From the IMG/VR virus record IMGVR_UViG_3300025133_000072, positions 1 through 64,000 of that record: a DNA stretch of 64,000 bases. One strand, given 5' to 3'. The stretch's first letter is position 1. Each line of letters starts with the position of its first letter. Source of the DNA: a virus. Below the pieces are notes generated by a model, which saw nothing but the letters and a program-made list of their open reading frames with translations, was not told where the DNA came from and made no database searches. The translations under genes were made by a program, and so were the position numbers. Of the stretch, positions 19,655 through 62,693 are shown in pieces.

Positions 19655-20044
19655 TTAGGACTTGGGAGGTTCTAAGCGCACCGAGTCCTCGAAAAACGAC
19701 TCATACGCTTCGTGAACATCTTCAGCAAATTTAGTGTTGCTCTCATTTAACAATGTTTTGATCTGAGGACTACTGATGGGAGTCCAACGAGCTTTGAAAG
19801 TTATCTCAAACTCTACCGGGAAATCCTTGCGGAGATCCCCGAGCCTATCCTGATCCCAGCCCATTTTCTCTTTAGATATGATGATCGCCTTGCCCGAACC
19901 TGTTTCTAGCGTTACGGAAGACTTGCCTTGGGGAACCGGATTTGATTTGATCAACTCGGCTTTAAGAGCTTTAAGCTCTTTAGTAAATTTTTCCGAGAGT
20001 CTTTTGAGCTTTAGCGCTCTTCTGATTTTGTCTTCTGTTTTCAT
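19655..20044 (-). CDS. Hypothetical protein (129 aa)
   Basis: Leftward, with an AGGAGC site and an early-type promoter upstream. Starts with a basic coiled-coil helix (IRRALKLKRLSEKFTKELKALKAELIK), then a beta segment (KSSVTLETGSGKAIIISKE) and a C-terminal FEITFKAR strand. The pattern suggests a small nucleic-acid-related or structural protein but no family is recognised. Monocistronic between promoter and terminator. Confidence 0.55.
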   Translation of the reverse strand: MKTEDKIRRALKLKRLSEKFTKELKALKAELIKSNPVPQGKSSVTLETGSGKAIIISKEKMGWDQDRLGDLRKDFPVEFEITFKARWTPISSPQIKTLLNESNTKFAEDVHEAYESFFEDSVRLEPPKS

Positions 20045-20071
20045 GCTGCTCCTTTGTCTACCTACTCTTAT

Positions 20072-20092
20072 AGTATAACACTTCTATAAGAT
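20072..20092 (-). promoter_or_regulatory. Early-type promoter for 20044
   Basis: Minus strand reads ATCTTATAGAAGTGTTATACT: spacer palindrome TCTTATAGA directly before an extended -10 TGTTATACT. A conserved AAGAGTAGG leader follows. Confidence 0.6.
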
Positions 20093-20575: not shown

Positions 20576-20767
20576 TCAAGGGATCATAGGTTTTCGTCCT
20601 GTTATTGTTCTAAATGCCTGACAGATAAAATTTTCCCCAATAAACAGACCTCCAATAAAAGACTGATCAAGATCTCTGTATGCGCTTTCCATAGGCACTT
20701 GACCATGCCATTTTACGTATTCTCTGATTTCTTTATGGGGGTAATTGAACTCAACGGTTATACGCAT
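20576..20767 (-). CDS. Small hypothetical protein (63 aa)
   Basis: Start at ATG 20767 with a GGAG site, inside the end of the upstream gene (20751-21275). Reads MRITVEFNYPHKEIREYVKW and ends GRKPMIP. Last gene of the leftward DUF3150-like cluster; it lacks the shared hRK-x8-W motif. Function unknown. Confidence 0.5.
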   Translation of the reverse strand: MRITVEFNYPHKEIREYVKWHGQVPMESAYRDLDQSFIGGLFIGENFICQAFRTITGRKPMIP

Positions 20768-21275
20768 AGAAAGTCTCCTCTTCTCGCCTGCTGAAAGCAT
20801 CCACAATATACAGAGGAAAGGACCCATTTTTGAAAAAATGATCTATGTGCCTGCCCTGAACTATGCCGTATTCATTTCTTTTTCCGCATATATCTACCCA
20901 ATAGATTTCTTTGGATTCTATCTTGAATTGAATGGAAGGGGAATCCTGTTCAAAAGCATCCATCGTAGATTGAAATCGATTGCCCCATTCCGTGGATAGT
21001 TGAGGCTGAATATCATGCTCCAAATAAGCTTCACCCCATTTGGCTTGAGCATATCCCAAGCATTTTCTGATCCTCATGGCATAAGAACTGTCCATGATAT
21101 AGGTGTGTCTTTCCTCTTCCATAGTCCCCAAGCTTTTCAGATCCAGTACGCCTCTGATTAAGCCTTGTATACCAAGGAGAATATCTGCGTGGCGTGGAGA
21201 CCGTTTTTTCTTTCTGTCGAGTCGAGGAAAAATAGGCGTTACCAAAAGGACTTGAATGGATTCTTCTTCAATCAT
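20751..21275 (-). CDS. DUF3150-like small protein, member 1
   Basis: 174 aa, leftward. It carries the family motif IRKCLGYAQAKW at residues 69-80, preceded by a beta/helix N-terminal region (IQVLLVTPIF; ADILLGIQGLIRGVL) as in the other members. The C-terminal half (FKIESKEIYWVDICGKRNEY) is its own. Overlaps both neighbours by a few bases, so it belongs to one operon with the DUF3150 gene. Catalytic function is not evident; a role with the MoxR/VWA machine is inferred from location and the shared motif. Confidence 0.5.
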   Translation of the reverse strand: MIEEESIQVLLVTPIFPRLDRKKKRSPRHADILLGIQGLIRGVLDLKSLGTMEEERHTYIMDSSYAMRIRKCLGYAQAKWGEAYLEHDIQPQLSTEWGNRFQSTMDAFEQDSPSIQFKIESKEIYWVDICGKRNEYGIVQGRHIDHFFKNGSFPLYIVDAFSRREEETFYAYNR

Positions 21276-21699
21276 CGATAGCCTTTGACATTATTTCCAG
21301 GTGTGTTTTCTTCTCCAGATCCTTCGGGAGCATAAGCACTTTTCTCAATCGGTGCATAGGGCTGTCGGGGTCTTCAAAAAGAGATTGGTATTCTTGATCA
21401 TATCTCTGAGCAATCTCCTGAAATTCGTTTTGGAGTGTGGACAGGATCTCTCGGAAGTCTTTCATAAGATCGATTTCGTAAATGATCCAGAACTCATTTC
21501 CATTATATCGCTTTGCTCGAATGCCGTGTTCCTTTTGAAATTCTTCCAGGGCATTTTCGATCTTAGCTCCAAAGCAATTCATCTCACTCCGGAGAACCCC
21601 CATTTCTGGAACCTTGTCCATTTGAGTTCGGAGCCTGTGATCATTAGAGGGCTCCCATATTTTGATGATTATGGTCGTTTTTAGATATTCTGTACCCAT
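21268..21699 (-). CDS. DUF3150-like small protein, member 2
   Basis: 143 aa from ATG 21699 (AAAGGAT site; the upstream in-frame ATG lies inside the previous gene). Family motif FREILSTLQNEF at about residue 82, with Phe replacing the usual Trp, followed by QEIAQRYDQEYQSLF. N-terminal strand TTIIIKIWEP and a middle region with FWIIYEIDL. Eight-base overlap with the next gene. Confidence 0.5.
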   Translation of the reverse strand: MGTEYLKTTIIIKIWEPSNDHRLRTQMDKVPEMGVLRSEMNCFGAKIENALEEFQKEHGIRAKRYNGNEFWIIYEIDLMKDFREILSTLQNEFQEIAQRYDQEYQSLFEDPDSPMHRLRKVLMLPKDLEKKTHLEIMSKAIDD

Positions 21700-21712
21700 G
21701 CCTATCCTTTGC

Positions 21713-22156
21713 TTAAGTCCATTTAGGCTCTTCAAAATGATGGGGGTCGGGTGCTTCTAGTGCCTCATCCGTTAATTCGATTTCGATGGTAAGGACGAAT
21801 AGACTATCCAAAGTCTCTTTGAATTCAGGTCCATTACCTCCGTATTTTGTAGCCATTTCCTCTTTTGTTTTTTCCCAGGAGGTTTTGACTTTTTCAATAT
21901 GCTTTCTAAAATCCAGGGCCTCTGATCCCGGAACCAAATAAGTGGTCCAACGATCCGAGCCGAATGGAGCATGTTCTGAATTCCTTTTTACTAAAACCCA
22001 ACCCCTTACTTCATGAGCAGTTGCCAGGAGATCGAATAATGTGTTTATGCAGTCGAAACTCTCTCCTCCTATATTCAGAGATTTTCCAAACACTGAATTT
22101 TTTCTTGTTTCCCATTCTTCTACGTGGGAATAGATTCTGACTTTTAGATTTTTCAT
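21713..22156 (-). CDS. DUF3150-like small protein, member 3
   Basis: 147 aa with a GGAGG site. N-terminal strand (LKVRIYSHVEEW), middle beta segment (GWVLVKRNSEHAPFG) and the family motif FRKHIEKVKTSW at residue 83, followed by a helix. C-terminus FVLTIEIELTDE resembles a beta strand shared with fuller DUF3150 proteins. Separated from the DUF3150 gene by a 33-base hairpin that may tune expression. Confidence 0.5.
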   Translation of the reverse strand: MKNLKVRIYSHVEEWETRKNSVFGKSLNIGGESFDCINTLFDLLATAHEVRGWVLVKRNSEHAPFGSDRWTTYLVPGSEALDFRKHIEKVKTSWEKTKEEMATKYGGNGPEFKETLDSLFVLTIEIELTDEALEAPDPHHFEEPKWT

Positions 22157-22183
22157 TTAAAAAAACCTCCTTCCTACAGGTAT

Positions 22184-22216
22184 ATCCAGAGCCTCCTTTT
22201 TTCAGAAGCCCTGGAT
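22184..22216 (-). other. Intergenic hairpin between DUF3150 and member 3
   Basis: Minus strand: ATCCAGGGCTTC pairs with GAGGCTCTGGAT (12 pairs including G-T) around TGAAAAAAG. No T-tract follows, so it is probably an attenuating or mRNA-stability element rather than a full terminator. Confidence 0.5.
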
Positions 22217-22233
22217 AGTTACTTGTCCTTGAA

Positions 22234-23088
22234 TTAGAATCCAAGGGAATTGATATTCCCCAGGATGTCGTTGGCGATCTCGGCGGTACTCTTGCGCTTC
22301 TTTTCATCTTCCCTGAGTTCTTCCGGAGAGTATTTCGAGACTTCCGATAGGCGCTTGCCCAGTTCCTCGATGTTCTCATCATCCGAAATATTCAACCCTG
22401 GAAGAATTCCAAGAAGTTCTGAGATGTTATTGATCAAGCTGTTTTTGAAGATCTTGGGCTTGCCCTCTTCACGATCCTCAGCCAGCCTGTCTGTAACCGA
22501 ATGAGCCACTTTCTTGATCCTGTTATACAGATCTCTCAAAGTATCCTCTTCCGTAGACTTAATGGATTCTGCGACTGACTTACGGATCTCTTCCATGTCC
22601 TCATCGTCTAGTCCTGCAATCCTGAAATCCGAGCTATCCGGAACCGGATAAGCCTTGACATCAAAAGCGAACTTGTCGGAAATCTCAGCCGGGAATTCGT
22701 TGATGTCATACAGATCTCCCAGACGCTCTCTGGCCTCTTCACGAGCTACGTCATAGTTCGCAACGAGCCTAGCAACAGCATCATTCCACTTGCCATGATA
22801 CTCAGCTTCCTTCTTGCGGAAGTCCGAGAAAAGCTTGATGGGAAGGACCCTGGAGCCTGTATCGCACCAAGGCAGCGTCATTTCATAAAACATCCCACGG
22901 ATCTCTCCTGCTAGGGATTCGACCTCTTTGAGATGCTCTTTGGAAATCAGGCGCTTGTTGTAGCGACCAGCATCCTTAGCAGCCCCATTGTTTTCGTGTA
23001 CTTCTTTGGTCGCTTTGCGATCCAGCTTACGAGCAGTCCACCTTGAAATGCTCAGATTTACTAAAATGGATTTAGTGTGTAACCCCAT
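22234..23088 (-). CDS. DUF3150 family protein
   Basis: 284 aa from ATG 23088 (GGAGGTTGGAG site). N-terminus GLHTKSILVNLSISRW, then RKLDRKATKEVHENNGA and KRLISK, the usual opening of phage DUF3150 proteins, which are commonly encoded with MoxR-type ATPases and VWA proteins. Motif FRKKEAEYHGKW at about residue 90 is followed by NDAVARLVANYDVAREEARERLG. The C-terminal half is acidic and helical. Full-length family member and the likely ancestor of eight shorter relatives nearby. Confidence 0.7.
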   Translation of the reverse strand: MGLHTKSILVNLSISRWTARKLDRKATKEVHENNGAAKDAGRYNKRLISKEHLKEVESLAGEIRGMFYEMTLPWCDTGSRVLPIKLFSDFRKKEAEYHGKWNDAVARLVANYDVAREEARERLGDLYDINEFPAEISDKFAFDVKAYPVPDSSDFRIAGLDDEDMEEIRKSVAESIKSTEEDTLRDLYNRIKKVAHSVTDRLAEDREEGKPKIFKNSLINNISELLGILPGLNISDDENIEELGKRLSEVSKYSPEELREDEKKRKSTAEIANDILGNINSLGF

Positions 23089-23130
23089 CTCCAACCTCCA
23101 GTTAGTTTATACTTTGTTTCCCACTCTTTT

Positions 23131-23156
23131 AGTATAACACCTTTCTATTAGAAAGT
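23131..23156 (-). promoter_or_regulatory. Early-type promoter for the DUF3150 operon
   Basis: Minus strand contains CTTTCTAATAGAAAG, an almost perfect palindrome, then GTGTTATACT (extended -10) and an AAAAGAGTGGG leader. Confidence 0.6.
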
Positions 23157-23173
23157 ACATGTTGTTTTAGTTT

Positions 23174-23404
23174 TTATCCCTCTTCCTCTTCCAATTCATC
23201 CTCTAAAAGCTCAATCCACTCTCGAAAGTTGATGAGATCATGCTCAAACGAGAGCCAATCCACATCGGTCATCAAAGAAATTGCATCCACTTCCCCTTTG
23301 AAGGATTCAAGAGCTAGACGCTTTGTTTCCGGGGATGTAGCCACTCTAGCCAGATAATTGGCTTTGGCCTTCTCTAATCTTTCTGCTGGATTTAATCGTG
23401 TCAT
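23174..23404 (-). CDS. Small acidic hypothetical protein (76 aa)
   Basis: Leftward. Helical and acidic (ALESFKGEVDAISLM; REWIELLEDELEEEEG). Preceded by a GGAGG-type site after the neighbouring gene at 23417. No family recognised. Upstream of the DUF3150 promoter, so it probably ends the transcript from 23998. Confidence 0.5.
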   Translation of the reverse strand: MTRLNPAERLEKAKANYLARVATSPETKRLALESFKGEVDAISLMTDVDWLSFEHDLINFREWIELLEDELEEEEG

Positions 23405-23416
23405 CTCAAAACCTCC

Positions 23417-23737
23417 TCAAACATCTTCCATGTAAATTGATTTTCTAGCCCTTGCCCACTCAGGGATATATCCAAAGGAATGATAAAAATCTTCGATTTC
23501 GTATCCTTCTGCTGGAGTGATAGTTCCCCTTTGTATCCCATCTGCAACATGGAGAAAAATAAAAGCCCCATGTCCTTTGGGATTCCCGTCCTTGTCTTTT
23601 CTATATGAATGAAAACGATAGGTCATTTCCAGTGTCTCCTTTGAAAGGGAGTCATGGATATATGGAGGGAGTCCTCTGCGAATTGCCTTTAATGCGTGAT
23701 CGTTGAACAATGACGCATGTGATCTCGTATACCCCAT
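23417..23737 (-). CDS. Hypothetical protein (106 aa)
   Basis: Start at ATG 23737 after GGAGGTTAGAA. Reads MGYTRSHASLFNDHALKAIR, then MTYRFHSYRKDKDGNPKGHG and GYIPEWARARKSIYME. Mixed alpha/beta, no family recognised. Between two small genes on the same leftward transcript. Confidence 0.5.
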   Translation of the reverse strand: MGYTRSHASLFNDHALKAIRRGLPPYIHDSLSKETLEMTYRFHSYRKDKDGNPKGHGAFIFLHVADGIQRGTITPAEGYEIEDFYHSFGYIPEWARARKSIYMEDV

Positions 23738-23747
23738 TTCTAACCTC

Positions 23748-23954
23748 CTAAGTCCATTTAACAGTAAAGTTTTTTGTTCCCACATTTAAGATCATTCCAC
23801 GACGATTTGCTATACTCTTCATAATGTTGATAGCTTTGGTAAATTCGTTTGCATCATCGTTAAGCGCATTCAAAACTAAATCTTTAGGAACCTTGTGATT
23901 AGTTTTGTAAAGATCACCCATAGCCATGTGAGCTATAATTGATGTGTTTTCCAT
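23748..23954 (-). CDS. Small hypothetical protein (68 aa)
   Basis: First gene after the promoter at 23998, with a GGAGG site. Short helical N-terminus and a C-terminal beta hairpin (MILNVGTKNFTVKWT). Its 5' leader is almost identical to the leaders at 31728 and 32120. No family recognised. Confidence 0.5.
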   Translation of the reverse strand: MENTSIIAHMAMGDLYKTNHKVPKDLVLNALNDDANEFTKAINIMKSIANRRGMILNVGTKNFTVKWT

Positions 23955-23997
23955 CTTGAACCTCCTTAGTTCTTATCTTCTTCCCACCTACATATAT

Positions 23998-24019
23998 ATT
24001 ATAACAGGTTTATATAAGA
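23998..24019 (-). promoter_or_regulatory. Early-type promoter for 23954
   Basis: Minus strand TTCTTATATAAACCTGTTATAAT, then ATATATATGTAGGTGGGAAG. Matches the promoters at 31661 and 32053 almost base for base. Confidence 0.65.
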
Positions 24020-24058
24020 ATAGCAAAGATGTATTAGAATCGAACAAGTCTCTTATAA

Positions 24059-24092
24059 AACAAGAACCCCCGGACTTTCCAGGGGCCTTGTT
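24059..24092 (-). terminator. Terminator downstream of MoxR
   Basis: Minus strand: AACAAG / CTTGTT outer stem and CCCCTGGA / TCCGGGGG inner stem around AAG, followed by TTTT. Ends the leftward MoxR transcript. Confidence 0.7.
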
Positions 24093-24109
24093 GTTAAGGA
24101 AGTTCGACT

Positions 24110-25138
24110 TTAGAAGTCATCGCCGTCGGAACTCATGTCCTTGGCAATCCAGTCTAAGAAAACCTTATTCTCAAGAGCTTCGGGATCACGTCCGTTGACG
24201 ATCTCTACCATGAGACTAATGAACTCGCCATTGTCTCTCAGGTACTTAATCGCATTTCCGATAGTAACCTTATTTACTTTCATGGCGATTGCTGCGGTTA
24301 CGGCATACCTTGCACAGAGCTTGTCTGGCAGATTGATCGTGGTTGGATCATCTGCGGTAAGGATGTCATCCAAATTTGGAATCTGAGTGTAGTAATCCTC
24401 AAAGCTCTTCAGAGCTGTCGCAGCCTCTTCCCCCACTGCTCCAGAAGTCGTTTCGTAATTGGCAATCTTCATTTTGCGAAGATTAGAAACAAACTCCCAG
24501 GAACGAGGCGTTGGAAATCCTCTTTCGCAGGGCTTCTTAGGTGGATCAAGAAGCTTGTCAGCCGAGAAGTTCAGGAATGCGATGATTGTAGGATCAATGG
24601 CATTCTTTGCAGCCCACTTAGTCCAATCAGCAATCGCCACGTCAAATTCCAGGTGTGTGAAACGATTAGCCAGAGGAGCTGGGAGTCGGTTTGTTACTCC
24701 ACGATCTTCGGCCCTGTTTCCTGCTGCTACGATGATCCAGCCTGGAGGAAGGGTATAGGAACCGACTTTCCTATCCAAGACCAACTGATAAGCTGCTGCC
24801 ATTACGCTGGGAGGGGCTGCGTTAATCTCGTCCAGGAAAAGAATCCCTTTGTCCCCGTGTGTATCCAGGTGAGGGAGAATGGGGGATTCGGAAAAGCTTG
24901 TTCGATTGCTGGACTTATCCACAACTGGGATTCCCCTCATATCCACAGGATCGATCTGAGAAAGCCTCAGATCCTCGAAACTGATTCCCAGATCATCGGC
25001 TACCTTCTTAACCACCGAACTTTTTCCTACTCCCATGGCTCCCCACAAAAAGACGGGGATATGCACAAGATCTTTAGGATTGTTCAGGTTGTGGCCTATA
25101 AGAGCCTTTAAGAATTTTTCTGTTTCCATCGGTGTCAT
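24110..25138 (-). CDS. MoxR-family AAA+ ATPase
   Basis: 342 aa from ATG 25138; the upstream in-frame ATG (25153) lies inside the GAGGAGG site. AAA+ features in order: Walker A GAMGVGKSS, Walker B ILFLDEINAA, sensor 1 AAGNRAED, and arginine-rich NRLPAPLANRF. The insert pattern (SQIDPVDMRGIPV; VGSYTLPPGW) is that of MoxR/RavA ATPases. In other genomes these act with VWA proteins as metal-insertion or remodelling chaperones. Divergent from the cluster leading to the VWA protein at 27510. Own sigma70-like promoter and terminator. Confidence 0.85.
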   Translation of the reverse strand: MTPMETEKFLKALIGHNLNNPKDLVHIPVFLWGAMGVGKSSVVKKVADDLGISFEDLRLSQIDPVDMRGIPVVDKSSNRTSFSESPILPHLDTHGDKGILFLDEINAAPPSVMAAAYQLVLDRKVGSYTLPPGWIIVAAGNRAEDRGVTNRLPAPLANRFTHLEFDVAIADWTKWAAKNAIDPTIIAFLNFSADKLLDPPKKPCERGFPTPRSWEFVSNLRKMKIANYETTSGAVGEEAATALKSFEDYYTQIPNLDDILTADDPTTINLPDKLCARYAVTAAIAMKVNKVTIGNAIKYLRDNGEFISLMVEIVNGRDPEALENKVFLDWIAKDMSSDGDDF

Positions 25139-25182
25139 GTTGAACCTCCTCATTTGGTTGTGTTTTCCTGACCTACTCTCTT

Positions 25183-25212
25183 AGTATAACCCACGGCTAA
25201 AAGCTCTGTCAA
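25183..25212 (-). promoter_or_regulatory. Promoter of MoxR
   Basis: Minus strand TTGACA (25207-25212), 18-base spacer, TATACT (25183-25188), followed by an AAGAGAGTAGG leader. Back to back with the rightward promoter at 25226. Confidence 0.7.
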
Positions 25213-25225
25213 TCATTTTTATTCT

Positions 25226-25254
25226 TTGCAAACTCTCTTATAAACCCCTATAAT
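25226..25254 (+). promoter_or_regulatory. Promoter of the rightward DUF3150-like cluster
   Basis: TTGCAA (25226-25231), 17-base spacer containing CTCTTATA, TATAAT (25249-25254). Divergent from the MoxR promoter; the -35 boxes lie 13 bases apart, so the two are probably co-regulated. Confidence 0.7.
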
Positions 25255-25276
25255 ATAGAGAAGGAGGTTTGACAAC

Positions 25277-25762
25277 ATGAGTGGAATTTTAGTTAGAGTA
25301 TCATACTGTGGGACTGCCAAAATTCTCCACTTTCTTAAAGAGCTTACTTATAACACCAGCCCTTTAAGAATACATAAGAAGAAAGCCATAGACTCTAGAG
25401 GGATAAAAGAGGTTGAACAGGCTTTGAATTTTCTGTGGAATCGGTATCGAAGGAACCTGCCGTTTAAAGGGTCTTCTTGCTCTAATAACAGAGCATTGGT
25501 CTTTTGGTTAAAAGCGGGAGCTATTGATTTCAGAAAGACTTTGGAAGTGTTCAAAGCCGACTGGAAAAAAGATGTTATCAATGTTCTGAGAGATCATCTT
25601 CCTTTCAATGTGTCTGAAGTAAAAGAAAGCATAGAGGAGTTTATGGACGAGTCCCTTAATATACAAGTGGACTCATCTTACCTGGATTACAAACCAAGTC
25701 TAGGGGGAATGCTCAGTAAAACATCTTTTGATATTGAGGTGGGAAATGAAAATTCACCTTAA
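25277..25762 (+). CDS. DUF3150-like small protein, member 4
   Basis: 161 aa with a strong GGAGG site. N-terminal strand GILVRVSYCG, middle helix EVEQALNFLWNRYRRNLP, family motif FRKTLEVFKADW at residue 85, then KDVINVLRDHLPFNV. First gene of the rightward cluster. Overlaps the next start by 17 bases. Function inferred only from family and position. Confidence 0.55.
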   Translation: MSGILVRVSYCGTAKILHFLKELTYNTSPLRIHKKKAIDSRGIKEVEQALNFLWNRYRRNLPFKGSSCSNNRALVFWLKAGAIDFRKTLEVFKADWKKDVINVLRDHLPFNVSEVKESIEEFMDESLNIQVDSSYLDYKPSLGGMLSKTSFDIEVGNENSP

Positions 25763-26159
25763 AACCAGATACTCTGATCTCTATAATCTCCTCTTGTCTC
25801 ATAAAACAAGAGCCCAGAAAAAAGGTCCTGGCTTCTGGCCTGTTGTAAATTTTTATGAGAGCATGATCCATGCCTTGTATTTTTTTAATAGGCCCCTTGA
25901 AGGAATTCATAGAGCGCTGGGCTCGAAAAGTCTCTTATGTTTGACAGGTGGGTACGTGGTTGCTCCTTCGGAAATTTTGTCTGTTAGAAGAAGCTTAGAA
26001 TCCGCTAAACAAGGATGGGTGGAAACTAGGATTACCTACGTGTCTGAATACTCTCGATGGGTGGCTGGTATGCATTCTCGTTTCCCTCAGATTTCTTTTC
26101 CGTCCCCGGCATTAATTGAATCTTTTTTAGATCTATCTTACGGAGTTGAAGATGATTAA
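25746..26159 (+). CDS. DUF3150-like small protein, member 5
   Basis: 137 aa from ATG 25746 (GAGGTGG site). N-terminal MKIHLKTRYSDLYNLLL, middle helix FYESMIHALYFFNRPLEG, motif VRRSLESAKQGW at residue 80, then VETRITYVSEYSRW. The closest shared layout is with member 4. The next gene starts inside its stop. Confidence 0.55.
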   Translation: MKIHLKTRYSDLYNLLLSHKTRAQKKGPGFWPVVNFYESMIHALYFFNRPLEGIHRALGSKSLLCLTGGYVVAPSEILSVRRSLESAKQGWVETRITYVSEYSRWVAGMHSRFPQISFPSPALIESFLDLSYGVEDD

Positions 26160-26609
26160 CGAGCCTGGAATATTAAACCGAGACGAGCCTGTTTTGAGAT
26201 ATGCATTGAAGACTCTATCCGATGTTCAAGGAGCCTTAGATATGGTGCCTGCATATGTTTTGATTAAATAGAAGGACGACAGGACTACTCCAGGTCAATA
26301 GGATTCCATAGAAAAATTCTCTATCTTTTAGAAGACAAACTTCCTCATTGTATTTTTGACAAGTTTGTTCAAGGGTCTGATCTGCTTTTGTTAAGGAGGC
26401 ATTTAACTGTTCAAAAAGGTATATGGAATGAAGCTGTAGCAGAACTCTTGGATCATTTGGATTATGGGGAAACTCATGATTTCATTCGAAGAGGATTTCC
26501 GATAGAAGAGTTCAAAAATAATTTGAAGGTAAAACATATCCTATTCAAATGGGATGAGGAGACAGACAGATGGGTGAACGAAGAAAAGAAGCAGGAGAAG
26601 GGGACATGA
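26152..26609 (+). pseudogene. DUF3150-like protein, member 6, interrupted by a frameshift
   Basis: ATG 26152 overlaps the previous stop and encodes MINEPGILNRDEPVLRYALK... to a TAG at 26269-26271 (39 aa). The -1 frame, open from 26268, continues with IEGRQDYSRSIGFHRKILYL and the family motif LRRHLTVQKGIW at about residue 81, ending at TGA 26607-26609. Joined, the product would have the family size (about 150 aa). Either a mutation or a programmed -1 shift at ATTAAATAG. Confidence 0.55.
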
Positions 26610-27034
26610 ATAATTTTCCCGTTCTAGAATATGAAACCAAACGAACCGAAGTAGTCGGATGGAAAAGGCTTGTACGAAGAGCCCACAAAGCTCAACTTGA
26701 ATCAGAAGCAGATGTTAAGTTAGCTATGTCCCCTTATGACATGTTTGAACTTCTTACATATGAACAGAAGTTAAGAGGAATCCTTGTTCAAGTCTCTTGC
26801 CTGGAATTTACTAATGAGAAATTTACTTTTAGTTTCTACGGAATAAGTCCTTCTTCGGTACTTCAAATCAGAAACGAATTGGAATTGTTCAGTCAAAAAT
26901 GGGATGAGGCTTTGAATCGGATTCTTTCTGTTTATGAAAGGCAATGGGAAGGTGGTTTGAAAAGACCTTATCTTCCACCACCAGAAGAATTAAAAGAGCG
27001 CTGGAGATTCCGAATTAAGGAGAAATCCGAATGA
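26606..27034 (+). CDS. DUF3150-like small protein, member 7
   Basis: 142 aa from ATG 26606 (GGAGAAGGGG site, overlapping the previous stop). Middle helix YEQKLRGILVQVSC, strand KFTFSFYGISP, motif IRNELELFSQKW at residue 88, then DEALNRILSVYERQWEGGL, which resembles the segment after the motif in the full DUF3150 protein. Coupled to the next gene by ATGA. Confidence 0.55.
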   Translation: MNNFPVLEYETKRTEVVGWKRLVRRAHKAQLESEADVKLAMSPYDMFELLTYEQKLRGILVQVSCLEFTNEKFTFSFYGISPSSVLQIRNELELFSQKWDEALNRILSVYERQWEGGLKRPYLPPPEELKERWRFRIKEKSE

Positions 27035-27411
27035 TGCGCCTCATTGTAAAGTGTAAATGGAATTCTTTTCATGAGCATCTCCAAGGACTTAACACCCTGT
27101 TTCTTGTAGATAGGGACCCTCGTTTTACAAAGCCTTTTAACACTGTGTGGATGAAAAATATAGTTGGGATTATCGCTCCTATAGGGGACATAGCACACAA
27201 CACAAACACAGCACTCAGCCACGTAGATTCCATCGTAGAGATAAGAAAGATATGGACTAAATCCCAATTGCTATGGGAAGAGGAATCTAGGCTCGTTCTT
27301 CAGAAATGGGAGAATGTTTTGGTGTATCAAAAACAGGTTGAGATTTTCAATCTTGCCGATTCCAAACAAGTAATCGAATGGCTGCATAGGAGTCATGAAC
27401 TCAATTTATAA
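27031..27411 (+). CDS. DUF3150-like small protein, member 8
   Basis: 126 aa. N-terminal strand MMRLIVKCKWNSFHEHLQGL, middle NIVGIIAPIGDIAHNT, motif IRKIWTKSQLLW at residue 71, then EEESRLVLQKWENVL. Last member of the rightward run, directly before the promoter of the VWA peptidase. Confidence 0.5.
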   Translation: MMRLIVKCKWNSFHEHLQGLNTLFLVDRDPRFTKPFNTVWMKNIVGIIAPIGDIAHNTNTALSHVDSIVEIRKIWTKSQLLWEEESRLVLQKWENVLVYQKQVEIFNLADSKQVIEWLHRSHELNL

Positions 27412-27439
27412 ATTTATTCTGTCTGTTTCTAAGACAAAG

Positions 27440-27468
27440 TAGACACTCTATTATAGACATGCTATACT
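27440..27468 (+). promoter_or_regulatory. Early-type promoter for the VWA peptidase
   Basis: TAGACA (27440-27445), 17-base spacer containing TCTATTATAGA, extended -10 TGCTATACT (27460-27468), then an AAAAGAGTGGGG leader. Confidence 0.7.
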
Positions 27469-27509
27469 AAAAGAGTGGGGTAAGAAGTAAGAGACTCAAG
27501 GAGGTTTGA

Positions 27510-28739
27510 ATGTCAGATAAAAAAGTTTTTAACAGTAAGGCCGAGAAGAAATACAAAAGGGCCAAAAGATCCCTTATGATTCTTCATCCTTTTTTTGGGC
27601 CTTTGATTGTTCGATTGAAGCCTATTCAGAAAGTGGAAGTAGGAACGGCTGGGGTAGATGGGGAATCCTTATTTTACAATCCAGAGTGGTTTAATACCCT
27701 TTCCGATCAGGAAGCTGTTTGTCTGCTGGCTCATGAAGTCATGCATTGTGCGCTCGGACATCATACCCGTCGAGGGAAGAAGGATAATAAGCTGTGGAAT
27801 ATTGCTTGCGATCATGCAATTAATATTCTTCTAGATGCCCATGGGAACATCCTTCCTCCAAATCCAGTAATGGATAAGAAATATGACGGATGGCCCTCAG
27901 AGAAGATCTATGCAGACATCTACGAAGATCAGCCCCAGAATCCAGGCGGAGGAGCGGGTAATGGAATGTCTGGTAGTGGGACTGGGAACAGTCCTGGGAG
28001 CAATCCTGGAAATGGTCAGCCTGATCCTAATGCTCCAGGGCAGTGGGGTCAGATTTTAGATGCTCCTAAAGGCTCTGAAAAGGAATCAGCGTCTGACTGG
28101 GAAGCAGCTACTATCGGTGCTGTAAAGATCGCTCAGATGCAGAAGAGCAAAGGAACCAATCCTGGATTTGCAGACAGATTGGCTGACATGTTCGGCCTGT
28201 ATCACAAAGTTTCCTGGAAAGAGGTTCTCAAGAACTTTGTCCAGACCTCTATTGGTGTGGATGATTTTACCTGGAAACGTCCTGGTAGAAGGGGTCTTTC
28301 GGAAGATCTGTACCTCCCTCATAGAGAAGGGGTCAAACTTGATGGAGTTTGGGTAGCTATTGATACATCCGGGTCTATCGATGACAAGACTTTGCAGATG
28401 TTCAAGACTGAAATTGAAGGAATCATGGAAATGTTTCCGAATAGCGAAGTCGGCTTGATGTTTTGTGACGCAAGGCTGCACAACATTTCAATGCAGAGCG
28501 CTCCTCTGGATTTCAAACCAAAGGGCGGAGGCGGAACTGATTTTCGTCCGGTATTCAATTATTTTGAGGAGCAGTACATCAATCCCAAGTGTGTGATTTA
28601 CTTAACCGATCTTTACGGAAGCTTTCCGGAAGAGCCTCCTTTTTACCCGACATTGTGGGTTGTAAAGGACGGGCCTTCAAAGCCTGAAGATCATGTGCCT
28701 TTTGGCATTACAATTGTACTTGAGGAAGATGATGATTAA
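27510..28739 (+). CDS. Metallopeptidase-like / VWA domain protein (DUF2201 type)
   Basis: 409 aa with a GGAGG site. The N-terminal domain has a zincin motif AHEVMHCALGHH (HExxH) at about residues 74-85. A Gly/Pro-rich linker (GGGAGNGMSGSGTGNSPGSN) follows, then a VWA domain with MIDAS residues DTSGS (about 286) and the later GGGTDF threonine. This two-domain design is typical of the VWA-like partners of MoxR ATPases. Together with MoxR (24110) and DUF3150 (22234) it forms a known phage triad; the substrate is unknown. Confidence 0.8.
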   Translation: MSDKKVFNSKAEKKYKRAKRSLMILHPFFGPLIVRLKPIQKVEVGTAGVDGESLFYNPEWFNTLSDQEAVCLLAHEVMHCALGHHTRRGKKDNKLWNIACDHAINILLDAHGNILPPNPVMDKKYDGWPSEKIYADIYEDQPQNPGGGAGNGMSGSGTGNSPGSNPGNGQPDPNAPGQWGQILDAPKGSEKESASDWEAATIGAVKIAQMQKSKGTNPGFADRLADMFGLYHKVSWKEVLKNFVQTSIGVDDFTWKRPGRRGLSEDLYLPHREGVKLDGVWVAIDTSGSIDDKTLQMFKTEIEGIMEMFPNSEVGLMFCDARLHNISMQSAPLDFKPKGGGGTDFRPVFNYFEEQYINPKCVIYLTDLYGSFPEEPPFYPTLWVVKDGPSKPEDHVPFGITIVLEEDDD

Positions 28740-53794: not shown

Positions 53795-56734
53795 GTGGCT
53801 CATTTTTTATCTTTTCAACTTGAGGACGAGTTTGTAAATTCGATCCCAGAGCCCCAGTTAGGATTTGGAGAATTAGGAGCATTTACATTTCTAAGGACCT
53901 ATAGCCGGGTTAAACCAGATGGAACAAAGGAATCTTTCCGGGACGTTATTAAGCGTTGTGTGGAAGGTTCTTTTTCATTACAGAAGGATCATATTCTTTC
54001 CCATCATCTAAGTTGGGATGAGGGGAAAGCAACTAAAGCAGCTCAAACAATGTTTTCTCATATGATGAATTTATATTTCCTTCCTCCTGGGAGAGGGCTG
54101 TGGATGATGGGAACCGAGTATGCTCACACCAGGACTCCGGCTGGATTATTTAACTGTTTTTCTGGGGATACTGAGGTTCTTACCAGACATGGAACTAAGG
54201 AAATACAAAATTTAGTAGGCACAGAACCTTTTCTTCTCACAAGTGCTGGAACTTGGACTTCGGCACCTGTTCGATCTTATGGTTTCCAGTCTTTATATGA
54301 GCTTACATTAACTAGACAAGGAATTCATAAAACCATCCGAGTAACCAAGGACCACAAATGGTATGCCCAGCATGGTCATAAGGTACGGAGAGGGCATTCT
54401 TTTGATGAATTGACTACACTTGAATTAGAAGAAGGAATGTGGTTGAGGTATCAGTTAGCCCAACCAGCGGGGAAGCCTTCTCCTCAAGGGATTCAACATG
54501 GAATTTCTTTTGGGGACGGCACAGGCACTTCTTTGAGTTTAGTAGGAGAAAAACAGGATCTTCTTCACTATTATTCGGCTAATGACAAATATCCTGAAGA
54601 AGAGAGAAATATAATCCGAGTGATCGATCTACCAGAACATTTTAAGGATAAGCCTGATCTGTCCTGGGACAGAAAATATCTATTAGGTTGGTTGATGGGG
54701 TATTTCGCAGCAGACGGGTCAGTGGATAATGGGCAAGTCACTTTGTCTTCTTCTCGAAAAGAAAATTTGGAGTTAGTTCGAGATGTTGCTTCTATTATAG
54801 GGATAGGGACTTATTCAATCAGGTTTTCTAGCGGGTCTTCTAATTATAAGGAAGATCGAGAATTATGGGACATAACTTTCATGCGGGATACATTTCCGGA
54901 GGGGTTTTTCTTAAGAAAAAAACATAGTGAAAAGGCGGGGAATAAAGACACGCCCAGAAGAAATTGGAATGTTGTTTCTGTGAAAGATTTAGGAGTAGAA
55001 GAAGAGGTTTTTTGTGCCGAAGTTCCTACAACACAAAATTTTACCTTGGAGGGAAATATTTTGACCCATAATTGTGCCTTTACGAGCACGAGAAACATAG
55101 CTAAAGAGTATGAGTCTCCCTTCACATTTTTGATGGATGTTTCGATGCTGGGAGTTGGATGTGGTTTTGATGTCAAAGGAGAATCCAAGGTCGAGATCCA
55201 CAAACCGACTGGGGAAGCAAAGAATTTTGTAATAGGGGATTCTAGAGAAGGCTGGGTGGAGAGTACAGGAGCCCTCATTCGATCCTATATCCATCCCACA
55301 GATAATCACCAGCTCCTTTTTGATTATTCAGGTATACGAGCAAGGCATACTCTTATTAAAGGATTTGGAGGAGTAGCCGGGGGACCAGAGAGCCTTATTC
55401 AATTGCACTGGGATCTCAGGGAGATGTTTGATCGAGCTATCGAAGCAGATAAAAAGCACATGGATTCCAGGATGATTACAGACATTATGAATCTTTTAGG
55501 TTCCTGTGTGGTGTCTGGTAATGTTCGTAGGGTCGCTGAGTTAGCTCTAGGCTTTCCTGATGATGAAGACTATTTGGATCTTAAGAATTATGAGATTAAT
55601 CCAGAACGCAAGGGATATGGGAAGTACAGTAATAATTCTGTATTCTGTCAGGTTGGAATGGATTACTCTTCTCTTATTGAGCGCACAGCTATCAATGGAG
55701 AGCCTGGAATGTTTTGGTTAGACAATGTTCGTCGCTTTGGTCGAATGGGGGATGATGAGAACAATCGGGATGCTCTTGTGAAAGGAGCAAACCCTTGTAT
55801 GGAGCAATCTCTGGAAGATAAGGAGATGTGTAATCTCGTTGAGATTTTCCCTACGAATATTCCTGATTATGTGTCTTTTGAGGATGTTTTGAAGTCGGCT
55901 TACTTGTACGGAAAGTCTGTGACGCTGACCAAGACCCATATTCCTGAAACAAATCAGAAGCAGCTCAAGAATCGTAGAATTGGGATCTCCTTGTCTGGAT
56001 TAGCTATGTTCAAAGAATCCAGGGGAATGAACACTATGATCGAGTGGATGGATCGGGGATACAAATTCCTGAAAGCTACAGACACTCAATACAGCAAATG
56101 GCTCACGATTCCAGAGAGTGTGAAGCTCACTTCGATCAAGCCTTCTGGTACTATTTCTTTAGTAGCAGGAGTAACAGCCGGGGTTCATTATCCTGTGGCT
56201 AAGCATTACTACAAGAATATCAGAGTGTCTTCACATCTCCCTCTTGTGGATAAGTGTAGAGAGCTTGGATACAAAGTGGAATGGGAGATCAAGTACAAGG
56301 ATGATCCTTCTTCTCTTACAGGATTCTCTTCTTATGAATCTGATGATACGGTAGTCATTGCTTTCCCGGTCAATATCCCAGTCAATATACGAGGTCGGTC
56401 GGAGATTTCTGTCTGGGAACAGGTAAAGTTTGTGGAACTTGTTCAGCGCTATTGGGCTGATAATCAAGTCTCTTGCACAGTAACTTTTCAGGATTTTGAA
56501 AAGGATGATTTGGTTCGGGTCTTGGAGATGTTTGATAGATCTTTGAAAAATGTTTCTTTCTTGCCTTTATTTGATAGCGGATACGAGCAGATGCCCGAAG
56601 AGAAAGTGAATCCAGAAGATTTCCAAAAGTACGTGACCGGGATTGTTCCTTATGCATTTGCCTCCGAATACATCAAAGGGGAAGCCAAGGGAGAGACTGG
56701 GTGCGACAATGAAGGGGGTTCTTGTTCTTTATAG
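53795..56734 (+). CDS. nrdJ: AdoCbl-dependent (class II) ribonucleotide reductase with intein
   Basis: 979 aa from GTG 53795 (AGGAGG site). Resembles monomeric RTPR: FLPPGRGLWMMGTE then FNC at 118-121. An intein (121-426) sits before the redox Cys; after splicing the sequence reads LFN-CAFTSTRN. NPCMEQSLEDKEMC (Cys668 and Cys679, spacing 11) matches the thiyl-radical and redox cysteines of L. leichmannii RTPR (408 and 419). The C-terminal pair Cys970/Cys977 is the expected shuttle. Extein about 673 aa, slightly short for the family. Makes dNTPs independently of oxygen, needing host cobalamin. Confidence 0.85.
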   Translation: MAHFLSFQLEDEFVNSIPEPQLGFGELGAFTFLRTYSRVKPDGTKESFRDVIKRCVEGSFSLQKDHILSHHLSWDEGKATKAAQTMFSHMMNLYFLPPGRGLWMMGTEYAHTRTPAGLFNCFSGDTEVLTRHGTKEIQNLVGTEPFLLTSAGTWTSAPVRSYGFQSLYELTLTRQGIHKTIRVTKDHKWYAQHGHKVRRGHSFDELTTLELEEGMWLRYQLAQPAGKPSPQGIQHGISFGDGTGTSLSLVGEKQDLLHYYSANDKYPEEERNIIRVIDLPEHFKDKPDLSWDRKYLLGWLMGYFAADGSVDNGQVTLSSSRKENLELVRDVASIIGIGTYSIRFSSGSSNYKEDRELWDITFMRDTFPEGFFLRKKHSEKAGNKDTPRRNWNVVSVKDLGVEEEVFCAEVPTTQNFTLEGNILTHNCAFTSTRNIAKEYESPFTFLMDVSMLGVGCGFDVKGESKVEIHKPTGEAKNFVIGDSREGWVESTGALIRSYIHPTDNHQLLFDYSGIRARHTLIKGFGGVAGGPESLIQLHWDLREMFDRAIEADKKHMDSRMITDIMNLLGSCVVSGNVRRVAELALGFPDDEDYLDLKNYEINPERKGYGKYSNNSVFCQVGMDYSSLIERTAINGEPGMFWLDNVRRFGRMGDDENNRDALVKGANPCMEQSLEDKEMCNLVEIFPTNIPDYVSFEDVLKSAYLYGKSVTLTKTHIPETNQKQLKNRRIGISLSGLAMFKESRGMNTMIEWMDRGYKFLKATDTQYSKWLTIPESVKLTSIKPSGTISLVAGVTAGVHYPVAKHYYKNIRVSSHLPLVDKCRELGYKVEWEIKYKDDPSSLTGFSSYESDDTVVIAFPVNIPVNIRGRSEISVWEQVKFVELVQRYWADNQVSCTVTFQDFEKDDLVRVLEMFDRSLKNVSFLPLFDSGYEQMPEEKVNPEDFQKYVTGIVPYAFASEYIKGEAKGETGCDNEGGSCSL
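54155..55072 (+). other. Intein with LAGLIDADG-type endonuclease in ribonucleotide reductase
   Basis: 306 aa, Cys121 to Asn426 of the precursor. Block A CFSGDTEVLTRHGTKEI, block B-like IRVTKDHKWYA, endonuclease motif LGWLMGYFAADGSV, block F VFCAEVPTTQNFTLEGN, block G ILTHN, followed by +1 Cys. Only one clear LAGLIDADG motif is seen. Inserted beside the active-site cysteine, where deletion must be exact. Confidence 0.85.
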
Positions 56735-59406: not shown

Positions 59407-60135
59407 ATGCCAGCACGACAAGCACGTAAGTCGAAAGGCTCTTCTAGGATTCGGAAACGAAGACAAATAGAGCCAGAAGAACCTTCTGTAGATCTAGAAA
59501 AGAACACTACAGTCAGTACAGCTATCTCCATTCTTTCAGACCCAACGAATCTGGATGAGAAGGTAGCCAGCTTGCTTTCGACGACTTCTATTGGTATCAA
59601 GGTCTTATTTGCGGGGATAGCACAGCAGACTTCCTCTACCCTGAGTTCTATGTTCATGACATTGGATTCTATGGAGAAGGAATTATCTACTGACAAGTTT
59701 CAACAAGACTTACCAAAATCTCAGAAGATTCAACTTTACAGAACCATACGAGATACCTTCCAAGATAAGTTGGAGTTCCTCAGACAGGTTATGGAAAAGG
59801 GGGATCACGATACTTTCAAGGATGAAATTATGCTGGCTCTGAGATCAGTACAGGGGACAGAGGAACATCAACAGGACGTAGATCATCATGATATAACTAC
59901 CCTGGAAGAATTTCCGGATATGGAAAAATCCATTCTGTCGGATTTAAGAAACATTATCCAGGACAATGCTCTCCCGGCCCCTAAGAAAGAAGATCCTCCA
60001 TGTCCTCCCAAAAAAGCCAAAAAACCCCCATCCAAGAAGTCTTCTCGATCCTCGACCCGCTCTACCAAAAATACCCAAAAGTCGAAGTCCACAAAGTCAT
60101 CGGCAAGCAGTTTGGTTATGAACGGGTCCCCGTAG
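59407..60135 (+). CDS. Hypothetical protein overlapping TerL; candidate small terminase
   Basis: 242 aa from ATG 59407 (weak ribosome-binding site). Basic N-terminus (MPARQARKSKGSSRIRKRRQ), a helical middle (YRTIRDTFQDKLEFLRQVME) and a C-terminal Lys/Ser/Pro tail (KKAKKPPSKKSSRSSTRSTK). The last 136 bases overlap the start of TerL in another frame. Position directly before TerL suits a small terminase subunit, but the classic fold cannot be shown. Confidence 0.45.
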   Translation: MPARQARKSKGSSRIRKRRQIEPEEPSVDLEKNTTVSTAISILSDPTNLDEKVASLLSTTSIGIKVLFAGIAQQTSSTLSSMFMTLDSMEKELSTDKFQQDLPKSQKIQLYRTIRDTFQDKLEFLRQVMEKGDHDTFKDEIMLALRSVQGTEEHQQDVDHHDITTLEEFPDMEKSILSDLRNIIQDNALPAPKKEDPPCPPKKAKKPPSKKSSRSSTRSTKNTQKSKSTKSSASSLVMNGSP

Positions 60136-62066
60136 ATATAGATGAGTTCATTGCCAGTGATCATTATTTAGGTCGCTTGTTTAATCAGAAGCAATCTGGA
60201 AGATGGGATCAGAGAGACTCAGAGGAATTCAGAGAGTGCTGGAGGCACCACTTACACAAGATTTACCCCAATCCTTTTTTTAGTCCTTTCCACGAGGTTA
60301 TTCTCACTGGAGGAATTGGAACAGGAAAGACCACAGGGGGAAATATCATAGGGGCTAAAGACATTGAGAATATTCAATGCATGGGCAATCCTCATGCTCG
60401 TTTTGGATTAGATCCCACAACCGTTCTGGTCTTTGCTGTGTTCTCCGCTACGTTGAAACAAGTTCAGGATGTTGCCTTTCAACAGATCATGGGATTTTTT
60501 GATGTTAGTCCTTACTTCAAAGACTTGAGAAAAAGATCTTTGGCAGAATTTAAAAAGAAGGTATCCGAACAAGATCCCATGACACAGAAGAGACAGAAAG
60601 CTCTTCAAACATTGTTTCCCAAGAGGACTGATATTTCTGTGGGCTCTGTTGGGGGACATGGATTAGGGAAGGCTATTTTTGCTGCTGAGATTGATGAGTC
60701 TAATTTTGGGGGAAGACTGGGACAGGCTAAGGATACCTACACTACTCTAAGAAGGAGAATCCAGACTCGTTTTATGGAAGCGGGTGGAGGGCTCCCAGGA
60801 CACATGATTTTGATATCTTCTAGAAAAGATGACACTGATTTTCTAGATGAGCATATTGAGAAGGTCAAAGATTCCAAAGGGGTCTATGTTGTAGAGATGC
60901 CGATTTGGGAAGCCAAGCCCCAAGTATATTCAGGCCATTCTTTCCCTGTGTTTGCAGGAGACACTACGACAGATCCTTTTATTATCGATGAGAGCAACAT
61001 AGCTGATAGGGCTACGTTAGATGAGTCCAATATCATTTATTTCCCTGAAGAGCACCGAGAGGACTGCTTACAAGACATTTACGGGGCTCTAAAGGATTTG
61101 GCTGGTCGCAGTACCATTACGAGTAAAAAGCTCATTACTAAGCCAGCTCTGTTGGAACAGGCTATGTATTTCCCCATCATCACATCCCAGCAAGTCATTC
61201 GTCTCTCCTTAAAAGGTTCTGATAGGTTGATTGATTACGTGTATTCACATCTCCTGGGACAGAGGGCAGATCCACAGGCTCCTAGATTCATTCATTGTGA
61301 CTTTTCCCTCACAGGCGATAGGACTGGGGTAGCTTGTTCGTATAACAAAGGATTCAAGAAGATTGAGCGTTATGATCCTTTGTCTGGAACCTATAAGGTT
61401 TTTTCAGAGCCCACTATAAAAACAGAATGGGTGATCTATCTTCAGTCTCGTCCTGGGGAAGAAATCCCTCTGTTCAAGATTTTGGAATTTATTGTGGATC
61501 TCAGGGATTCCTATAAATATCATATTGGATTGCTTTCTACTGACGGATTTCAATCAGCCGATTTTAGACAACGAGCAGAGATGCAGCATTTTAAAACAGA
61601 TGTTTTGTCTCTAGATAAATCGAAAGACCCTTACATTAAATTTAGGATCATGGTGAATGATGGTAGGTGGGAGGGTCCGAGACATCCTCTTTTATTGAGA
61701 GAGTTTGTAGGGCTCAGGGATACAGGGAAGAAATTTGATCACGGAACGGATAAGGAGGCTTGTTTTGTGGGGGAGACAGAGGTTCGTATTAGAAAAAAGG
61801 AGGGGGAATATAATATAGCAATGGAGGCTCTCTCTAAGGAGGTTTTTGCCGAGATTTCTGTTTTGTCTTATGATCAAAGTAAAGGGACTTTTTGTTTTTC
61901 TAAATTAAACAGGTGTTGGGAGTCCAAAATTGTGGAGGAGTTGATCGAAATAGAGTTGGATGAGGGGACAGTTTTCAGATGTACTCCGGATCATTTAATT
62001 TTGACTAGAAGAGGATATGTGCAAGCTCAGGAGCTTACGTTAGAGGATGAATTAATTAGTGCTTAA
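60000..62066 (+). CDS. terL: Terminase large subunit, N-terminal part with IntN
   Basis: 688 aa: 587 residues of terminase followed by 101 residues of an N-terminal split intein. ATPase motifs: Walker A ILTGGIGTGKTT (104-111), Walker B IFAAEIDES, coupling motif ISSR. Nuclease: IHCDFSLTGDRTG and LLSTDGFQSADF. The third nuclease motif, SKDGADAVGG, is missing and is encoded at 62421-62693. The protein stops at TAA 62064-62066. The first 136 bases overlap another gene. The product needs trans-splicing to pack DNA. Confidence 0.85.
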   Translation: MSSQKSQKTPIQEVFSILDPLYQKYPKVEVHKVIGKQFGYERVPVDIDEFIASDHYLGRLFNQKQSGRWDQRDSEEFRECWRHHLHKIYPNPFFSPFHEVILTGGIGTGKTTGGNIIGAKDIENIQCMGNPHARFGLDPTTVLVFAVFSATLKQVQDVAFQQIMGFFDVSPYFKDLRKRSLAEFKKKVSEQDPMTQKRQKALQTLFPKRTDISVGSVGGHGLGKAIFAAEIDESNFGGRLGQAKDTYTTLRRRIQTRFMEAGGGLPGHMILISSRKDDTDFLDEHIEKVKDSKGVYVVEMPIWEAKPQVYSGHSFPVFAGDTTTDPFIIDESNIADRATLDESNIIYFPEEHREDCLQDIYGALKDLAGRSTITSKKLITKPALLEQAMYFPIITSQQVIRLSLKGSDRLIDYVYSHLLGQRADPQAPRFIHCDFSLTGDRTGVACSYNKGFKKIERYDPLSGTYKVFSEPTIKTEWVIYLQSRPGEEIPLFKILEFIVDLRDSYKYHIGLLSTDGFQSADFRQRAEMQHFKTDVLSLDKSKDPYIKFRIMVNDGRWEGPRHPLLLREFVGLRDTGKKFDHGTDKEACFVGETEVRIRKKEGEYNIAMEALSKEVFAEISVLSYDQSKGTFCFSKLNRCWESKIVEELIEIELDEGTVFRCTPDHLILTRRGYVQAQELTLEDELISA
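61761..62063 (+). other. Split intein, N-terminal fragment (IntN)
   Basis: 101 residues starting at Cys588: block A CFVGETEVRIRKKEGEY, block B FRCTPDHLILTRRGY (TxxH-type), ending QAQELTLEDELISA. Length and end point are those of natural split inteins. No endonuclease domain. Confidence 0.85.
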
Positions 62067-62431
62067 GCTAGATCGGTATCTATATAAATACCCAAGTATA
62101 TCTGATCATTTGGATGAGATTATTTTTTTGTGCACAAAGGAGGGCTTGTCTGTAAGAGAAATATCGAAGGGGTTAGATTCGAATGTGCATCATGCCGTTA
62201 TACAAAGAATTCTTAAGATGTTAGGCTTGCTGAGAAGTAAAGCAGAGACTTGATTTAGATATACCTCTTCCTTCTCAGCTTCGAGATAAATTGAGGCAAG
62301 GCGGGTTTTCACAGGTTGCTCAGGTTTTTCGATGGATTGGTAGATCCAGGAATTATGGGATTGCTTGGATAGAAAAGATTTATAGGCAAAAATACACAGA
62401 ATTTTATAGGGAGCATTTTAATGAAGATTAG
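62059..62431 (+). CDS. Gene inserted between the two TerL halves, possibly frameshifted
   Basis: Frame 1 from GTG 62059 encodes 64 aa (MLKLDRYLYKYPSISDHLDE; HTH-like EGLSVREISKGLDSNVHHAVIQRILKML) and stops at TGA 62251. Frame 2 (62234-62431) continues with LDLDIPLPSQLRDKLRQGG, RNYGIAWIEKIYRQKYTEF and a stop overlapping the IntC start. Together they suggest one protein of about 120 aa with a +1 shift. No nuclease motif recognised. Sits where homing endonucleases occur in fractured genes. Confidence 0.5.
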
Positions 62432-62531
62432 ATCAATTCAAAGAGTTTTTTGTTCTCCCACACCTGTTTATGATTTAGAAACAGAAGAATTCCATAATTT
62501 TGCTTTAGGATGTGGTGTGATTGTTCACAAT
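62421..62531 (+). other. Split intein, C-terminal fragment (IntC)
   Basis: 37 residues: block F VYDLETEEFHNFALG and block G GVIVHN with terminal Asn, followed by extein Ser. Standard size for a split IntC. Confidence 0.85.
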
Positions 62532-62693
62532 TCGAAAGATGGTGCTGATGCCGTGGGAGGGTCTGTGTATCAAGCAGCTACTTCCGATTCTCAGCCACAG
62601 GTATACGCTGATGATTTAATAGCTCAAATGGAAGCCGAACTTCAGAGAGGTTCTGAGGGTGGTCTTTTGTCTGATTTGTTTGATGATGATTAG
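62421..62693 (+). CDS. terL: Terminase large subunit, C-terminal part with IntC
   Basis: 90 aa: 37 residues of intein (MKIRSIQRVFCSPTPVYDLE..., ending GVIVHN) and 53 residues of terminase starting SKDGADAVGGSVYQAA, which carries the third nuclease motif of TerL, then an acidic tail. ATG 62421 starts inside the previous frame. Spliced TerL would be about 640 aa, a normal length. The +1 residue is Ser. Confidence 0.85.
   Translation: MKIRSIQRVFCSPTPVYDLETEEFHNFALGCGVIVHNSKDGADAVGGSVYQAATSDSQPQVYADDLIAQMEAELQRGSEGGLLSDLFDDD

Follow-up and report, generated by a model that had tools for sequence, protein, structure and literature searches.

Inspection of a 64,000-nt window (the whole stretch of DNA analysed here, part of the 75,720-base virus record IMGVR_UViG_3300025133_000072 of an uncultured phage) showed eight short genes gathered around those coding for a MoxR AAA+ ATPase, a full-length DUF3150 protein (named D) and a protein with metallopeptidase-like and VWA-like domains. 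Together with D, the eight short proteins make up a single paralogous family. The homology of the short proteins to DUF3150 is well supported and, judging from predicted structures, they are best described as DUF3150 N-terminal units lacking the C-terminal helical bundle. The minus strand carries, in this order, MoxR (24110–25153), three small genes, D (22234–23094), n3, n2 and n1 (down to 20751). The plus strand, read divergently from MoxR, carries p1, p2, p3, p4, p5 and the metallopeptidase-VWA gene (27510–28739). The original prediction, of divergent MoxR and VWA genes flanked by short relatives of DUF3150, was right in this respect. Computational analysis established this gene order, the homology, a common promoter-like box and intact active-site residues in the two machine proteins.

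The family had initially been selected by eye from a motif, [ILVFM]R[KREN]x8[WF], and all nine of its predicted occurrences were confirmed. The motif was present in every short gene past D (n3, n2 and n1) and in every one preceding the VWA gene (p1–p5), eight out of eight, and absent from the three small genes that separate D from MoxR. It occurred nine times in the 1,419 amino acids of the family, compared with five times in the 20,750 amino acids of the other predicted genes of the record, an enrichment far beyond chance. Shuffling of each short protein generated the motif in 4–10% of cases, for a joint probability of 6e-11 (a post hoc value). The claim that the motif starts near residues 69–90 held in part: the motif Arg is residue 70 in n1, 72 in p5, 84 in n3, 86 in p1, 87 in p2, 93 in D, 95 in n2 and 101 in p4, so that the actual range is about 70–100. 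In p2 and p4 the motif shifts nearer to 80–90 if translation starts internally, at the ATGs of 25747 and 26606, which are the likely starts of these two genes.

Since the motif had served to pick the family, further tests were chosen that did not lean on it. When hidden Markov models (HMMs) were built leaving out one protein at a time, the left-out protein ranked first among about 245 open reading frames (ORFs) for six of the eight short proteins (n1, n3, p1, p2, p3 and p4). Random sets of eight small genes from the same phage matched this result in 3 of 240 trials. In all-against-all phmmer comparisons, the best partner of n1, n3, p1, p2, p3, p4 and D was a member of the family. With the motif columns masked, a leave-one-out position-specific scoring matrix spanning positions -10 to +30 still gave high scores (Fisher combined p 9e-16), a value to which an amphipathic-helix pattern may contribute.

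On the minus strand, n1 (20751–21275; 174 aa; motif IRKCLGYAQAKW) and n3 (21713–22156; 147 aa; motif FRKHIEKVKTSW), the central member of the family, were recovered by their left-out HMMs with E-values of 7e-4 and 7e-6, respectively. The n2 protein (21268–21735; 155 aa; motif FREILSTLQNEF) ranked only eighth in this test; with a profile of the DUF3150 N-domain it was third of 253 ORFs, with the motif in register. On the plus strand, p1 (25277–25762; 161 aa; motif FRKTLEVFKADW) was recovered at E 8e-4 and matched n3 by phmmer (E 0.004), while p2 (25728–26159; 143 aa; motif VRRSLESAKQGW) and p4 (26570–27034; 154 aa; motif IRNELELFSQKW) matched each other at E 4e-4. The frame of p3 (26152–26609), whose best phmmer partner was D, meets an in-frame stop and then continues in a different frame, either because the gene is truly broken or because of faulty assembly; the part containing its motif (LRRHLTVQKGIW) is open from 26268. 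The p5 protein (27031–27411; 126 aa; motif IRKIWTKSQLLW) was assigned from the motif and from a left-out HMM that placed it fourth (E 0.21). Identities are about 20–25%; despite this extreme divergence, seven of the eight genes are intact, tightly packed frames.

The relationship to DUF3150 was examined starting from D, a protein of 286 aa. By tblastn, D matched an annotated DUF3150 protein at E 5e-36 over 98% of its length, and homologs encoded on plasmids at E-values down to 5e-41. Its score for the Pfam family DUF3150 (PF11348) was 14.1 bits, short of the gathering score of 24.9; its identification as a DUF3150 protein is clear by tblastn, though it falls under the Pfam cut-off. An AlphaFold2 model of D, obtained with 11 phage homologs, had a pLDDT of 88 and matched the BFVD entry A0A6J7WV52 by Foldseek (E 5e-21, TM 0.85), which indicates a DUF3150 fold. 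The model contains a strand (residues 9–17), a helix (56–72), a strand (81–85), the motif helix (86–112), a further helix (114–128), a strand (143–150) and a C-terminal helical bundle (164–283). A search of the PDB with it returned just generic helical-bundle matches to the C-terminal half and scarcely probed the N-terminal unit.

For an HMM of the eight short proteins alone, the top match outside the set was D (E 0.0044, over D residues 83–154). In the opposite direction, a DUF3150 N-terminal profile built from 24 proteins, D included, and run on the 253 ORFs placed n3 (E 0.04) and n2 (E 0.05) directly behind D, with p2, p4 and p1 lower but at the same profile position; n1 did not score. Comparison by hhalign of the short proteins with 57 DUF3150 proteins, D being left out, gave E 4e-4 over 50 columns, while the best of 49 control families reached E 0.12 and VWA 0.08. 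The probability assigned by hhalign itself was only 31–35% despite the small E-value, and the case therefore rests on the controls and on the agreement of methods rather than on one score. The HMM of the short proteins was also run on 3,113 ORFs of other phages, taken from the surroundings of their MoxR or DUF3150 genes, where DUF3150 proteins scored above length-matched proteins (p 2e-16, a value inflated by related sequences) and no raised score was seen for MoxR or VWA. None of the short proteins passes the Pfam gathering score for DUF3150, although the sole Pfam match of p2 at E<1 is to this family, residues 73–121 aligning with positions 73–121 (E 0.19, 11.5 bits). The detectable sequence similarity spans only about 50 residues.

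The structure of n3 was predicted with AlphaFold2 using an alignment of the other seven short proteins, without any DUF3150 sequence. Confidence in the model was moderate (mean pLDDT 61; 75–78 in the core). It comprises a strand (3–11), helices, a strand (70–75), the motif helix (77–104), a helix (110–119) and a strand (121–129), and its E-H-H-E-E-H-H-E order agrees with that of the N-domain of D; fold and order were examined for n3 only. When compared with BFVD by Foldseek, n3 matched six of the seven models found with D at E <1e-10; these stood at ranks 1–4, 8 and 14, and one of the models common to both lists is named DUF3150. The single E-values were modest (0.03–0.4), but chance would hardly produce such agreement between lists of matches to predicted models. 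The short proteins (126–174 aa) lack the C-terminal helical bundle, the n3 model stopping after the last strand, and retain an N-terminal unit of strand, helix, strand, long motif helix, short helix and strand. The idea that they are relatives of DUF3150 is borne out by profile, secondary structure and fold, with the match confined to the N-terminal alpha/beta part of the domain. DUF3150 thereby gains a predicted two-part structure in which the N-terminal unit may be able to stand alone.

The two halves of the motif differ in their distribution. The aromatic position is occupied by F, Y or W in 54 of 57 DUF3150 proteins, and a near-invariant Tyr lies 11 residues beyond it (56 of 57). In n2, n3, p2 and p4, reading of the sequences showed a Tyr at the equivalent position, 21 residues after the motif Arg. 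The Arg itself was found in only 2 of the 57 other DUF3150 proteins. What had been proposed as a family motif is, in its aromatic part, conserved across DUF3150, while the Arg is probably a hallmark of the lineage of this phage. Its rarity elsewhere suggests that the short genes came from the phage's own DUF3150 line.

The family, predicted to have nine members, has at least one relative more, located beyond the cluster. This tenth relative, a 309-aa protein (record positions 69250–70179, outside the window and about 41 kb from the cluster), was detected with profiles and not through its motif: it appeared repeatedly among the top three matches of the leave-one-out HMMs, with a best E-value of 8e-4. 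It carries the motif (LRKRLEPEHGAW) and the Tyr at +21, has a strand-like N-terminal start, contains a P-P-D-D-F segment as in p4 and p3, and shows, in the alignment, an SSDF stretch resembling that of D. Its C-terminal half had no Pfam or PHROG match. Two small frames of the cluster may also be related. A 63-aa frame right after n1 (20576–20764) has a similar starting strand (MRITVEFNYPHKE) without the motif, and is perhaps a truncated member. In the phmmer comparisons n2 paired best with a 76-aa protein encoded between D and MoxR (23174–23404; E 0.085, alignment at HDLINFREWIELLEDEL), which is perhaps a degenerate member.

A promoter-like box of 15 bases (GTTATACTAAAAGAG) lies upstream of D (23124–23138, minus strand), and recurs with one mismatch upstream of MoxR (25176–25190, minus strand). 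Since the pattern was derived from these two copies, its further matches serve as a test. One (GCTATACTAAAAGAG) lies upstream of the VWA gene (27461–27475, plus strand), and another, with no mismatches, upstream of a gene coding for a 129-aa protein (box at 20065–20079, minus strand; gene at 19655–20044, minus strand), to which no function was assigned and which is a possible fourth regulon member. These four, all at or near the cluster, were the only matches in the record at one mismatch or fewer.

MoxR retains intact Walker A and B motifs (PF07726/PF07728, phrog_1297; invariant GxGK and DE). The 409-aa VWA protein, formed by a DUF2201_N metallopeptidase-like domain (PF13203, E 3e-42) and a VWA-like domain (PF09967, E 5e-22), contains an HEVMH site (H75, E76, H79) and the MIDAS residues DTSGS/T/D (D285, S287, S289, T343, D367), all invariant. 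Walker A/B residues in the former and HExxH and MIDAS residues in the latter are the features by which a phage MoxR-vWA pair is recognised. MoxR, DUF3150 and VWA genes form a compact, conserved operon on plasmids and on many phage contigs, a grouping already noted at the outset as known in phages, which makes D a normal third component of the set.

Phages and plasmids alike commonly carry MoxR-VWA machines. The account we prefer, which we hold to be about evenly balanced between true and false, is that the short proteins are paralogs of the DUF3150 N-terminal unit that may act as alternative third subunits of the MoxR-VWA/metallopeptidase machine. Their link to the machine is drawn from gene order, the common promoter-like box at which D, MoxR and VWA start, and the conserved operon; the adaptor role itself is inferred. 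In MoxR-VWA couples the VWA protein is the adaptor; in NorQ/NorD the MoxR hexamer holds it in its pore, and its MIDAS engages an acidic target residue (PMC9976466). By analogy, the phage MoxR hexamer would drive the VWA/metallopeptidase protein, with full-length DUF3150 as the standard third subunit, in a targeting or bracing role. The short proteins would dock in place of D through the common motif helix, and the divergent surface of each might recruit a different phage or host target to be remodelled or cleaved. A more tentative extension, which we think somewhat doubtful, is that the machine is a modular AAA+ one, for remodelling or proteolysis, whose single motor is aimed at many targets by a built-in set of eight or more interchangeable adaptors, generated by repeated truncation and divergence of the phage's own third subunit. 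The short divergent copies beside the motor genes, partly under one promoter box, would make the choice of targets by phage machines directly testable. Several observations weigh against alternative third subunits. The box found before D, MoxR and VWA is absent ahead of p1; other phages with the same operon have no such swarm but unrelated small genes; and p5 is the weakest member, with n2 likewise weakly supported which, together with the broken frame of p3, means that not every copy need work.

Among other explanations, the main rival is that the machine has the short proteins and DUF3150 as its clients, substrates that it folds, assembles or cleaves, for example during virion assembly. Such a role in virion assembly and processing has been proposed for the MoxR-vWA chaperone-cochaperone pair of group 2.2 jumbo phages, which includes a metallopeptidase fusion (PMC7824862), and the HExxH and MIDAS residues of the VWA protein are intact here too. 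The cluster, however, lies apart from the structural genes and adjoins those for an SNF2-type helicase and replication proteins, while the presence of the same operon on plasmids, which make no virions, counts against a purely virion role. On balance we consider clients unlikely, if less so than the remaining alternatives. Small, fast-diverging phage genes often have effector (anti-defence) roles, and the short proteins could be independent effectors, acting for instance against host defence, for which the DUF3150 N-domain serves only as a scaffold and MoxR-VWA is not needed. We consider this rather improbable, as all eight copies are closely linked to the machine genes; the lack of any match to PADLOC defence families argues neither way. 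Scarcely different in standing, and marginally less probable, is the possibility that the short genes are remnants of repeated partial DUF3150 duplications, drifting with no common role. The broken p3, the low identities and the short span of similarity fit such decay, but stops would be expected in drifting copies, and seven of the eight frames are open with the positions of motif and Tyr kept. That the likeness reflects chance or a convergent amphipathic helix pattern, as the weak single scores (most E-values from 1e-4 to 1) and the selection by eye might suggest, is very improbable and largely refuted by the random gene sets, the 49 control families, the length-matched proteins, the fold search and the recovery of a tenth relative by profile. 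A chance motif, PADLOC defence families and PHROG matches were each considered, and none gave a better account of the cluster.

The MoxR-VWA pair and the operon are already known or at least present in databases. DUF3150 (PF11348) operons of phage MinM2, IMG/VR contigs and plasmids of Burkholderiales and other hosts contain the same three-gene set, with one DUF3150 gene per locus and the operon genes on one strand, while here there are eight paralogs of the N-terminal unit only, a distant tenth relative and a MoxR gene divergent from VWA. No comparable swarm of short third-subunit paralogs was seen in 160 other virus loci or in the plasmids, phage records and literature searched, a weak negative as the members are hard to detect; the view that such a swarm is undescribed stands within this low sensitivity. 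The profile of the short proteins found nothing in 50 other virus records, which shows little as single members score weakly, and no small gene within the MoxR-DUF3150-VWA block of other phages stood out when tested as a hidden DUF3150 copy. Single-protein queries of IMG/VR or phage records with D, VWA, the protein encoded at 60000–62066, p4 and the tenth relative yielded no near relative of this phage.

The jumbo-phage pair has the same MoxR and the same metallopeptidase-VWA fusion as found here; the passage of that report describing it mentions neither DUF3150 nor short paralogs (PMC7824862). The gp24/gp25 proteins of N4 and other Schitoviridae (e.g. LIT1) are MoxR and VWA proteins related to those of this phage, but tblastn detected no DUF3150 in N4-like phages, which have other small genes between MoxR and VWA. 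The MoxR-vWA ternary conflict systems (VMAP/iSTAND/FtsH; PMC7159879) likewise combine MoxR, vWA, a third component and diversified partners. Their third component differs from the DUF3150 seen here, and no Pfam match to VMAP, iSTAND or FtsH domains was found among the ten cluster proteins scanned. NorQ/NorD and RavA/ViaA (PMC9976466, PMC10585395), with a MoxR hexamer and a VWA adaptor, offer a possible working model for the phage machine, although they are cellular systems that have single VWA partners and lack a swarm of paralogs.

Small genes in the blocks of other phages had features of their own. In cyanophage MinM2 (L002:9878-10904), three tandem paralogs of about 112 aa lie between DUF3150 and VWA; they belong to a different family and provide a second example of small paralogs at this place. 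Small and otherwise different block proteins of other phages share a C-terminal tail, approximately (A/E/L/K)-R-(L/M)-(K/R/N/T), as in SAVTAERLKG and LLIEARLKS (loci L031, L041, L051, L056, L102, L104, L116, L119 and L125). This tail was present in 20 of 88 proteins within the MoxR-DUF3150-VWA block and in 21 of 503 outside it (Fisher 8e-8, for a pattern picked after viewing some of them), and is possibly a recognition tag for the MoxR-VWA machine.

Elsewhere in the window, a B12-dependent ribonucleotide reductase gene (53795–56734) contains an intein that carries a LAGLIDADG domain. The frame at 62421–62693, with FHNFALGCGVIVHN, resembles by eye an intein C-terminus and adjoins the gene at 60000–62066.

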